DNA of 40,232 nucleotides, from the NCBI GenBank assembly GCA_031288225.1, contig JAITRU010000011.1, forward strand, positions 1-40,232, in the 5' to 3' direction. Below the pieces are notes generated by a model. The model searched no databases. It was not told the origin of the DNA and saw only the letters and a program-made list of their open reading frames with translations. A program made the translations under genes and the position numbers. The stretch's first letter is position 1. Each line of letters opens with the position of its first letter. Shown piece by piece: positions 298 to 7,950 of this stretch. This DNA is from Holosporaceae bacterium. Lineage in GTDB: Bacteria; Pseudomonadota; Alphaproteobacteria; UBA3830.

Positions 298-429
298 ATA
301 TTTTACTCAATTAATTGATGTATTTTAGAAAAAATATTGGATAATTAGCAAAAAATCAAATTCGTTAGCGCAATGATTTGGCTGATATTTGAGCAAAAAT
401 GCGCCATTGCAAACGCACTTTCAAAGTAA

Positions 430-528
430 TACCAAATCCCACCATCGATTAACTATTGCCTGCCTGGCAGCAGCTGCCATAGAGCGTGTTCGAGAAGCCA
501 TTTGGACAATCCAAAATGGGATTTGGTA
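430..528. mobile_element. 99-bp MITE-like element with 12-bp perfect terminal inverted repeats
   Basis: The ends are TACCAAATCCCA (430-441) and TGGGATTTGGTA (517-528), exact reverse complements. TAA occurs on both sides (427-429 and 529-531). The uninterrupted homologous sequence at 820-848 has one TAA at the matching point, so this is a 99-bp insertion with a 3-bp target duplication. It is too short to code for a transposase and no ORF in it looks real. The parent transposon is not in this window: the terminal repeats differ from those of the IS at 37881-38592. Confidence 0.72.
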
Positions 529-532
529 TAAT
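503..532 (+). promoter_or_regulatory. Outward promoter formed at the right junction of the 99-bp element
   Basis: TGGACA at 503-508 inside the element, an 18-nt spacer, and TATAAT at 527-532 resemble a sigma-70 promoter pointing right. The -10 box is composite: TA from the element end, TAA from the target duplication, and one flanking T. A second TATAAT from the original site lies at 538-543. Transcription from here would run antisense into the tRNA-Thr. Activity is inferred from the motif only. Confidence 0.4.
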
Positions 533-697
533 TTATCTATAATGAACAAAATGCATATTCAAGTTATTTTAAATTTAGCTAAAAACAAATACGCGACGTT
601 CCGTGCAAAGGGAAAAAACGCACAACGCCGCCACAAATTCCAAGTTTTTCATTTTTTCGTAGTTCGTTTTATCTTCATTTTTCCCTGATATTGCAAA

Positions 698-773
698 TGG
701 TGCCGAACGAGGGACTCGAACCCCCGACCTGCTGATTACAAATCAGCTGCTCTACCAATTGAGCTAGTTCGGC
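698..773 (-). tRNA. tRNA-Thr (anticodon TGT)
   Basis: The minus strand folds into a complete cloverleaf. The acceptor stem pairs GCCGAAC with GTTCGGC, the D arm is GCTC...GAGC, the anticodon stem GCTGA/TCAGC holds the loop TTTGTAA (anticodon TGT), and the T arm carries TTCGAGT. The discriminator base is A (701) and the CCA end is encoded (700-698). It decodes ACN threonine codons, chiefly ACA. Its anticodon reads ANN codons, so A37 is a likely target of the t6A pathway to which TsaE in this window belongs. Confidence 0.97.
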
Positions 774-819
774 ATTTTTTCCTGAACGGAGCCGTACACC
801 TTATCACCATTCCAATGAC

Positions 820-850
820 CATTATAGATAAATTACTTTGAAAATGCGAA
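820..850 (-). promoter_or_regulatory. Promoter of tRNA-Thr (right copy of the inverted repeat)
   Basis: On the minus strand, TTCGCA (850-845; 4 of 6 matches to the -35 consensus), an 18-nt spacer and a perfect TATAAT (826-821) lie about 48 nt upstream of the tRNA 5' end. The same sequence, inverted, occurs at 414-544. The -10 is convincing and the -35 weak. Confidence 0.55.
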
Positions 851-1142
851 TTTCGTGTAAACAGGTATAGAAACTGCAATGATTAACAGAACGAACTTTC
901 AAAGTAGGTCATGTATATTATAAGATTCAACAATCAGAGCTTTTTGAAAAAACGTCAAACTCCTTAGCCGGAAGCTACATTGCATTACAACACCTCAACA
1001 ATTGCACCACACCACCCAAATATGCGTAACTGCGCCCTGCCGTTTTGGAGCGAAACACCCACGGAACCAGCCTCAAGATAGGCAGCTGCGAAGATTCAGA
1101 GTATACCTATAAAATAATTTTTACTAGCAGAGCAATCCAACA
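849..1142. other. Intergenic stretch between tRNA-Thr promoter and ftsZ
   Basis: About 290 bp without a convincing gene on either strand. It contains the degenerate third copy of the ACTTTCAAAGTA sequence near 893. On the minus strand it is the 3' trailer of ftsZ, and I see no strong terminator hairpin with a T run. Confidence 0.5.
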
Positions 1143-2735
1143 CTAGCCCCTGCGCAGGAAGGCCGGTATTTCCAGATCTTCTTCCTGTGTTACGACCTGT
1201 TGCTGGGATGGCTGCGGTTGCTGAAGTGATTGTTTTTGTTGAACCACAAAATCATTTACACTCTTCTGTTGCTGCTGCTGAGGAGAAGATTGGGATCCGC
1301 CGGATGAAAACGGCCGTCTCATGCCAGTTAATCGTTCAAACAAGGAAGGCGCCCTCTTTTTCTGTCCAATTTCTTCATGGGTGCTTAGTATTTCAGCGCT
1401 GCTAGAATTTGCAAAGGTCGCTCCCGGCTGATTACCACCGGCGACATTGGTACCGCCGCTACTGTAACCACCACCAGCCGGATTCTGTCCATGCATCGAC
1501 TGAAGATGGGCACCGCTTCCAACAACGGCATCGAATGGCATTGTGGTGCCAGCCGGTGGCATCGGCGTTGGTACACCATGCTGAGCAGCTGCACCAAAAT
1601 CTCTCTCGGATTGGCCATAATAGCCAACAGCCGCGTCGCTCCTGTCCTTCTCCTGGGCCTTGCCGAAACCCGCTTCCTCAAAGGCCTTAATTTTTTGCTG
1701 TACCGCAACCGCATCAATGCCAGTGGCTACGACTGACACTCTCATGCGACCATTCATCTTTTCATTAAACGTGGATCCAAATATGATATTGGCGTCCGGA
1801 TCAACCTCTTCTCTTATGCGGTTGGCTGCCTCGTCAACCTCATACAATGTCATGTCATATCCACCAGTAATATTAATGAGAATACCCTTGGCTCCCTTCA
1901 TGGAGACATCGTCCAGCAGAGGGTTGGATATGGCTGCTTCGGCCGCTTCGATGGCCCGGCGATCTCCTTCGGCATCGCCGGTCCCCATCATTGCTTTACC
2001 CATCTCACTCATCACCGTTCTTATGTCAGCAAAGTCAAGATTGATGAGGCCTGGCATAACCATAAGATCCGTAACTCCCTGCACGCCGGAACGCAATACA
2101 TCGTCTGCCATCTTAAAGGCATCAGCAAACGTCGTTTTTTCGTTGGCAACTCTGAACAAATTTTGGTTTGGAATAATAATCAGAGTATCGACAAACTGCT
2201 GCAATTCGTCGATGCCCCGCTCGGCGATGCGCATTCGCGTCGTACCTTCAAAATGGAAAGGCTTTGTTATTACCCCTATGGTAAGTACACCATGTTCCTT
2301 GGCTAACCTAGCAATCACCGGTGCAGCACCGGTGCCAGTCCCACCTCCCATGCCTGCAGTTATAAAAACCATGTTGCTATTTTTTATATAGGATACGATC
2401 TCGTTTATGGCCTCCTCTGCTGCGGCTCTGCCTACATCCGGCCTAGCTCCAGCCCCCAGACCGCTCGTGATTTCAAGTCCAAGCTGGATGCGTTTTTCGC
2501 TCATGGATTGGAGTAATGCCTGGGCATCAGTATTAGCCACCACGAAATCCACTCCCTCAAGGTTTGATCTAATCATATTGTTTACGGCATTGCCACCTGC
2601 GCCACCGACTCCAAACACAGTAATTCTTGGTTTTAAATAGGAATCCGCACCGGCAGCGAAATCATCATTAAAAAAATCACCCTGTGCGCTTTTGTCCACT
2701 TGGTTCAAATTATCGGCTTCGACTGTCGGGGCCAT
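1143..2735 (-). CDS. ftsZ: Cell division protein FtsZ
   Basis: Tubulin-like GTPase that polymerises into the Z ring and recruits the division machinery. The N-terminal GTPase domain starts with [17 protein letters not shown] and carries the tubulin signature [10 protein letters not shown] near residue 130. After the globular core comes a long low-complexity linker rich in Gly, Ser and Gln, ending in the conserved C-terminal peptide [10 protein letters not shown] that binds FtsA. At 530 residues it is longer than E. coli FtsZ, as is common in Alphaproteobacteria because of the linker. I chose the ATG at 2735 because GGAGG lies 8 nt upstream (2744-2748); an in-frame start at 2771 has less support. 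It is last in the minus-strand cluster mreB-ftsQ-ftsA-ftsZ. Confidence 0.97.
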
Positions 2736-6345: not shown

Positions 6346-7950
6346 ATGAAAAATAGAAAAAAAACGCTAATTTCATTGTGTTGTCTAGTTCTGCAAGGCT
6401 GCGGTGTTGACGATGATATTTTTTTGCAAAATCAGCATAAAGTTCCAAATTATGAAATGAACGCAGATAATTATTTTGATGACGATATTCGTGTATTAAA
6501 TGATGTTATCCTGGAAAATAATGGCAATATCGTTGCAAACACATCCATACCTCCAGATACTTTAGAACTCATATTTCAAAGGGAACAAAGAAAAAGAAAA
6601 GAAGAAAAAGCAAATTTTTCAAAGAAGCAGATCCTTACAAATACGGAATCCTATGCTTCTGTTGCCGAAGTACCGTCCATGCCGGCTGTAGCTCCGCAAA
6701 TTTCAGGCACATTAACGACGAAGGAAGATGTCAAAGGCTCAAATACAGCTGGCTTGGATAGCAAAAAAGACCCATCCGGGCAAATTAGGCCAGAATTGGG
6801 TTATGATCAATGGGACAATGTTTCCAGGTATTTAGCTGGCATGTACGCTCCTGATAATTTCAATAAAGAAGAATTCGCAAATTACGCAAAAGTTATAGAA
6901 GGCAAATTTTCAGGGCTAATGTCCAATAGCCTTGGTTTGGTAAAATCATGGTCCCGCGAAAATATTCTCGATAAAGTTGCCAATTGCCAGACTGTTTTTT
7001 ATCCCTTCGGAGGTCCAGACGTGGCCTACGCCCTTGAGTTTTTTCCGGATGCTCAAACATATGTTTTAGTTGGATTAGAGCCCATCGGTAACTTTGATGC
7101 TATAGTTAAAGCCATAGGCAATCCAAATACACTGCGGCTCCTTACAACATCATTATCCACATATCTATCGAGTGGGTTTTTCATAACATCAGAAATGTCC
7201 AATCAACTAACCAACAAGAGCGTCAGAGGAACGTTACCTTTAATGCTCATCCAGCTATCTAGGCTAGGATTCACTTTGGATAAAGTAGAAAGTGCAAAAA
7301 TTGGAACTTCCGGAGATATTGAATTTTCCGGGAATGGTATCGATTGTGTAAGAATTAATTGCACAAGAAATGAAGATGCTGCCCAAAAGGTGGTCTATTA
7401 CGTAAGAACAAATCTAGGCAATGGCAATTCTCAATTGGATAATTTGTTTCAGTTAGTAAAGAAAAACAATTTTGTAACTTTCATAAAAAGCGCTTCCTAC
7501 GCTCTTCACGATAGGTCATTATTTAGGCTAAAACAATTCATTCTTGCCAATACCAGCGCGGTTTTACAAGATGATTCCGGCATTCCATTTTCTTCCTTTG
7601 ATGCAACATGGGAAAAAAATATTTTTGGCACCTACAATGGTCCAACTTTAAAAATTTTTAAAAATTATATACAAAAAGATCTTTTGAATTTTTATGGAAC
7701 TCACGCTTGTGCTAGCATTCCATTTAAAATTGGATATGGATTCCGGATGGGAAGACCAAATTTGTTTCTGGGAATTTCTTCCGCGAAAAACAATCGGAAA
7801 GCGGAAGAATCAGCGAATAAAAATATCGATGATGAAAAAGCGTCCATGGAAGAACAATCCAAAAAAGGCGGATCTGAGCAAGGAAAATCCAGGAAGGAAC
7901 AACGTCAGGTTGAGTCCATAAAAACTGTACCGCCACAGGAATCTCTTTGA
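6346..7950 (+). CDS. Large lipoprotein of unknown function
   Basis: The N-terminus is a lipoprotein signal: basic MKNRKK, a short hydrophobic stretch, and lipobox LQGC with the lipidated Cys at residue 19. Residues 20-145 are polar and low in complexity, as expected for a tether. The main domain runs from about residue 150 to 480 and includes YPFGGPDVAYALEFFPDAQ and YVLVGLEPIGNFD. I recall this YPF-GPD / GLEP pattern from unnamed lipoproteins of other bacteria, but I know of no assigned function. The C-terminal 50 residues are highly charged (K/E/S/Q). The ATG has GGGG 5 nt upstream. The stop codon overlaps the start of the next gene (TGATG), so the two are probably translationally coupled. 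Confidence 0.85.
   Translation: MKNRKKTLISLCCLVLQGCGVDDDIFLQNQHKVPNYEMNADNYFDDDIRVLNDVILENNGNIVANTSIPPDTLELIFQREQRKRKEEKANFSKKQILTNTESYASVAEVPSMPAVAPQISGTLTTKEDVKGSNTAGLDSKKDPSGQIRPELGYDQWDNVSRYLAGMYAPDNFNKEEFANYAKVIEGKFSGLMSNSLGLVKSWSRENILDKVANCQTVFYPFGGPDVAYALEFFPDAQTYVLVGLEPIGNFDAIVKAIGNPNTLRLLTTSLSTYLSSGFFITSEMSNQLTNKSVRGTLPLMLIQLSRLGFTLDKVESAKIGTSGDIEFSGNGIDCVRINCTRNEDAAQKVVYYVRTNLGNGNSQLDNLFQLVKKNNFVTFIKSASYALHDRSLFRLKQFILANTSAVLQDDSGIPFSSFDATWEKNIFGTYNGPTLKIFKNYIQKDLLNFYGTHACASIPFKIGYGFRMGRPNLFLGISSAKNNRKAEESANKNIDDEKASMEEQSKKGGSEQGKSRKEQRQVESIKTVPPQESL

Follow-up and report, generated by a model that had tools for sequence, protein, structure and literature searches.

Is the 99-bp sequence that lies between two copies of TAA near one end of this contig a mobile element and, if so, what moves it? 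The window (the whole stretch of DNA analysed, 40,232 nucleotides) is contig 37 of a 938-kb, 52-contig Holosporaceae MAG (G000), and among its genes are ftsZ, ftsA, mreB and dnaA as well as those for a valyl-type tRNA synthetase and a DNA ligase. An earlier note, made from the letters of the window, had described a MITE-like element with perfect 12-bp terminal repeats at this position, together with its empty site.

The window element and its empty sites

Direct reading of the bases confirms that the coordinates of the element and of its terminal repeats are exact (Table 1). The match on which the earlier note relied was also reproduced. Removing 430-528 plus one TAA leaves CGCACTTTCAAAGTAATTTATCTATAATG, of which 28 of 29 bases are identical to 820-848 read in reverse complement (chance expectation in the window about 4e-11), and the same inverted match appears in a repeat search of the window as two repeat pairs, I3 and I4. 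The element ends and the duplication read from this comparison hold. However, 820-848 lies at the end of MITE-C1, a multicopy repeat in its own right whose first 26 bp are the source of the match, and thus the site is paralogous rather than a former allele of the locus. Other MITE-C1 copies are found at 91-96% identity in C13, C26, C12, C2 and C3, with partial copies in C47 and C51.

The repeat into which the window element is inserted is MITE-C2, which is related to MITE-C1 and whose left end in the window (about 337-359) is degenerate. Once joined, the flanks of the window copy match about 30 unoccupied MITE-C2 copies (best 92.5% over 80 bp, C32:12339-12418), and these are better empty sites for it than 820-848. 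An orthologous unoccupied ftsZ-tRNA locus was sought in relatives, where the only matches were of 43 bp or less (G003, G010, G002). In the genome as a whole, five copies of the family, which we call MITE-A, have related empty sites, the window copy included. The empty sites of the other copies independently show that the added unit is the element plus one 3-bp repeat.

The tRNA-Thr gene lies between two inverted arms, an arrangement that might also arise if a local inverted duplication had lost 99 bp. This reading, raised in the earlier note itself, is extremely improbable. One arm is part of MITE-C1 and the other of MITE-C2, multicopy repeats that are dispersed separately, and the 99 bp is a dispersed family of its own, whose copies with duplications at other loci refute it. 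The further possibility of a single-copy element is likewise excluded by the number of copies in the genome and by homologues in relatives.

Table 1. Locations of the features discussed, in window positions (rows with two dots) or in contig and locus coordinates. In the rows on related empty sites, the location is that of the MITE-A copy whose joined flanks have the matches.
Feature	Location	Strand	Basis or remark
MITE-A copy, 99 bp	430..528	+	full-length copies in own genome n=48, 44 exactly 99 bp
Left terminal inverted repeat TACCAAATCCCA	430..441	+	read directly from bases
Right terminal inverted repeat TGGGATTTGGTA, reverse complement of TACCAAATCCCA	517..528	-	read directly
Target site duplication TAA, left copy	427..429	.	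direct reading; identical TNA flanks in 37/48 copies
Target site duplication TAA, right copy	529..531	.	direct reading; identical TNA flanks in 37/48 copies
tRNA-Thr (TGT), outside both repeats and between them	698..773	-	ARAGORN, Rfam RF00005
Host repeat MITE-C2 (about 105-bp family), split by MITE-A	360..541 (360-429 and 532-541)	+	joined-flank matches
MITE-C1, separate 96-bp repeat near tRNA-Thr gene	823..918	+	copies elsewhere in genome
Related empty site, duplication TAA	window copy		joined flanks
Related empty site, duplication TTA	C51:1246		21 matches, at least 6 exact
Related empty site, duplication TGA	C43:6704		15 matches
Related empty site, duplication TTA	C41:2580		11 matches, 2 exact
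Related empty site, duplication TTA	C21:7659		1 match
MITE-E	G000 C51:1187-1400, C26:28719, C12:6700-8000 and others		
Composite-repeat pieces	C11:1-76, C32:1-76, C20:5-103, C23:5-103		contig ends
IS630-family fragments, own genome	C36:325-486, C3:11427-11489, C2:49400-49552, C51:1478-1633		
IS630-family copy L196, relative	G020, 1413-2520		
IS630-family copy L197, relative	G041		1110 bp

A dispersed family with a three-base target duplication

A whole-genome search with the 99-bp query recovered dozens of copies, roughly 88-98% identical to it. The 48 full-length copies that could be extracted are a lower bound, and the four that depart from 99 bp measure 98 (two), 100 and 101 bp. Being short, dispersed and multicopy, lacking a transposase, and having 12-bp terminal inverted repeats, a target duplication and empty sites, the family fits the definition of a MITE. 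As judged from its sequences, MITE-A is a real mobile, non-autonomous MITE family of a known kind. Plasmid collections, phage collections and viral contigs searched with the element gave no match.

The flanking trinucleotides are identical in 37 of the 48 copies and include TTA (18), TAA (18) and TGA (1); therefore the target duplication is T-N-A and not TAA specifically. TAA, as proposed in the earlier note, stands for the window copy, and the many copies proposed there as a test do exist, but the rule does not extend to the family. Among the 46 copies with long flanks, 35 have identical trinucleotides at the boundary versus 0-1 when the comparison is shifted by 3 to 12 bp. When the right flanks were reshuffled among copies 2000 times, the mean was 18.8 identities and the maximum 29. 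The symmetrised target is ATATWATAT, centred on TWA.

Direct neighbours in C2, C5 and C21 are spaced 102 bp apart, and these pairs look like insertions into an older copy's own duplication. Two derivatives were also found: at C8:260-299 a form shortened to 40 bp by deletion, and at C1:14888-14972 an 85-bp palindrome that is nearly perfect. MITE copies are nested in each other, and in several contigs the end falls within or next to a copy, so the repeats probably help explain the fragmented assembly.

MITE-E, with ends TATACTCAATCACCG...CGGTGATTGAGTATA, is a frequent host of MITE-A insertions and is apparently TA-flanked. A composite of MITE-A within a MITE-E-like repeat is located at C41:2580-2678, with halves at four contig ends, and seems to have been copied as one unit. 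Counts for families B, C, D and E refer to about 260 kb of the 938-kb genome.

The constancy of the element might instead indicate that the repeat is retained for a function, such as an RNA hairpin, a terminator or a peptide insert of the Rickettsia type, with mobility being secondary. Although copies in other genomes diverge by up to 30%, their length remains 99 bp, and the 102 bp that include the duplication are a multiple of three; the window copy also folds better than its shuffled versions (z -3.9). However, the folding derives mainly from the terminal repeats, and the G000 consensus and a G024 copy have weaker z values, -2.1 and -1.4 respectively. An Rfam search of the element gave no match. 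A joined reading frame of at least 120 codons is absent at the site in 33 of 39 testable copies, and four of the six candidate frame sites, when inspected, revealed no intact gene with a clear in-frame insert. Lengths do vary, as the 90-bp sister family MITE-D and the 40-bp derivative illustrate. A host function for MITE-A is not supported, and we regard this explanation as very unlikely.

An IS630-family candidate for the mobilising transposase

The mobilising transposon is absent from the window, as the earlier note had stated. Its best candidate is an IS630-family element of about 1.1 kb (DDE_3, ends TACCAAATCCCRTT...), found as fragments elsewhere in the genome and as fuller copies in relatives. 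Strict identity between its end and MITE-A covers only about 12-13 bp. The fragments in this genome, which lie mostly at contig ends, code for the beginning of a single type of transposase (MSRKS...); no complete copy was recovered from this genome. Those with a visible end start TACCAAATCCCA or TACCATTCCTCA, and the 12 bp of TACCAAATCCCA recur at the fragment ends at C3:11335 and C36:567-578. Taking the fragments and the copies in relatives together, the ends follow TACCAAATCCC[AG]TT....

The copy L197 carries two overlapping reading frames. The second scores 100 bits against DDE_3 and 142 bits against the NCBIfam IS630 model NF033545 (cut-off 100), and its D, D and E residues are found at FGDE, IIDGAG and NPVE. 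TNA flanks 15 of 16 readable IS630-family ends (binomial P about 2e-17 at the window base rate of 0.063). In L196, the sole relative copy whose two flanks can both be read, the trinucleotides are TAA and TGA, which is not an identical pair.

At the sequence level, the family, its ends, duplication, related empty sites and spread, and the ends and flank in common with the IS630-family element, are directly evident. The most likely mobiliser of MITE-A appears to be an IS630-family insertion sequence, and we estimate a probability of about 0.8 that the non-autonomous MITE-A is mobilised by an IS630-family DDE transposase that has the same ends and duplicates a 3-bp TNA target. Such a transposase would recognise the TACCAAATCCCA inverted repeats, move the element in trans, presumably by cut-and-paste chemistry, and join it into a TNA target, preferably ATATWATAT, with duplication of the three bases.

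IS630 elements normally duplicate TA, whereas the IS1031 group of IS5 typically duplicates TNA. MITE-A has the latter rather than the TA that is classical for an IS630-derived MITE, and a 3-bp TNA duplication is unusual for its likely IS630 partner. A literature search outside ISfinder for IS630 elements with a 3-bp TNA, TWA or TAA duplication found none. The same MITE might be mobilised by an IS1031-like transposase of the IS5 family, whose known duplication is TNA. Relics of that family are present in this genome (DUF4096 plus DDE_Tnp_1 in C12, C-terminal remnants in C32 and C41), and a MITE-A fragment adjoins the C32 remnant. However, no TACC...GGTA ends were seen on these relics, all of which are decayed, whereas the IS630-family copies do bear such ends next to TNA. 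We consider an IS5-family mobiliser unlikely and retain the IS630-family transposase as the preferred candidate.

In their ends and target, two sister families belong to the same class as MITE-A. MITE-B is represented by 32 copies, 30 of them 99 bp, with duplications TAA, TTA, TGA and TCA, and MITE-D by 14 copies with identical TNA flanks in all 14, both as counted within the 260 kb covered. The interior of MITE-B has a weak gapless likeness to that of MITE-A (30 of 71 positions versus a shuffle mean of 17.7). The first 21 bp of MITE-B are those of the IS630-family fragment end in C51, which links this class of terminal repeats and TNA targets to the IS630-family transposase. MITE-A, MITE-B and MITE-D may therefore all be served by a single IS630-type transposase or by closely related variants. 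We also lean towards the broader view that a Holosporaceae clade of the IS630 family shifted from TA to a 3-bp T-N-A target and drives at least these three MITE families (A, B and D), each kept to one length (99, 99 and 90 bp).

For reference, MITE-B has ends TACCATTCCTCATTATTAATT...GAGGAATGGTA and occurs at C2:49116-49214 and at about 31 further sites (L067, L173, L207), often directly adjoining MITE-A copies. MITE-D has ends TACCAGATCCCATGTCTGG...GAGATCTGGTA and is found at C26:28610-28699 and 13 other places (L004, L079, L173). Separately, an IS630 gene of a second type (MNAYS..., HTH_Tnp_IS630) at C43:22935-23463 was considered as a partner, since it is preceded by 27 bp of MITE-A. We rejected it, as it is best explained as a TA insertion inside a MITE-A copy.

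Distribution in relatives and comparison with known systems

The closest FtsA relatives of the window are from Holosporaceae MAGs (82% identity to Gsp477_bin98). A scan of genome contigs that used the protein encoded at 6346-7950 as query retrieved no relative. MITE-A matches are present in six of 40 related genomes (G003, G010, G024, G015, G023 and, in part, G018), and therefore the family is older than the genome of the window. G003 has one copy at 91% identity and G010 has 25 matches, at 70-76% where full length. In G003, G010, G015, G023 and G024 the homologues have TTA, TAA or TGA duplications, and nearly all extracted copies are 99 bp. MITE-A seems to have been amplified separately in different lineages.

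These repeats document an uncharted MITE burst in the reduced genome of an intracellular bacterium. If the IS630 link is true, they also offer dozens of natural insertion sites for studying how a Tc1/mariner-type target changes from two to three bases.

Among known systems, the Rickettsia palindromic elements are likewise small repeats of an intracellular alphaproteobacterium with terminal repeats of about 12 bp, and they are often fused in frame in genes (PMC2229807). MITE-A differs in this respect, since the 39 tested sites include no clear case of in-frame insertion. The candidate mobiliser resembles the IS630 family in its DDE_3 domain, winged helix-turn-helix, two overlapping frames and length of about 1.1 kb. 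It differs in being flanked by TNA rather than by the TA duplication that is classical for the Tc1/mariner relatives of IS630 (PMC7386202). Within the same transposase group, a change of the duplication from TA to the 3-bp TAA is documented for the Fot elements of the pogo superfamily, which are eukaryotic IS630-Tc1-mariner relatives (PMC7386202). Fot elements use TAA only, whereas TTA, TAA, TGA and TCA are found here; if the reading of a TNA shift is true, these families would be a bacterial counterpart of the Fot shift.

The closest known analogue of MITE-A appears to be the repeat unit of pneumococcus (RUP) with IS630-Spn1, as compared by features and not by sequence. RUP is 107 bp long, has 108 mostly intergenic copies, shares its ends with an IS630-family element and, like MITE-A, often lies beside or inside other insertion sequences (PMC2229807). 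Both are mostly intergenic MITEs of about 100 bp with IS630-family ends. The RUP target contains TA, whereas MITE-A duplicates a 3-bp TNA.
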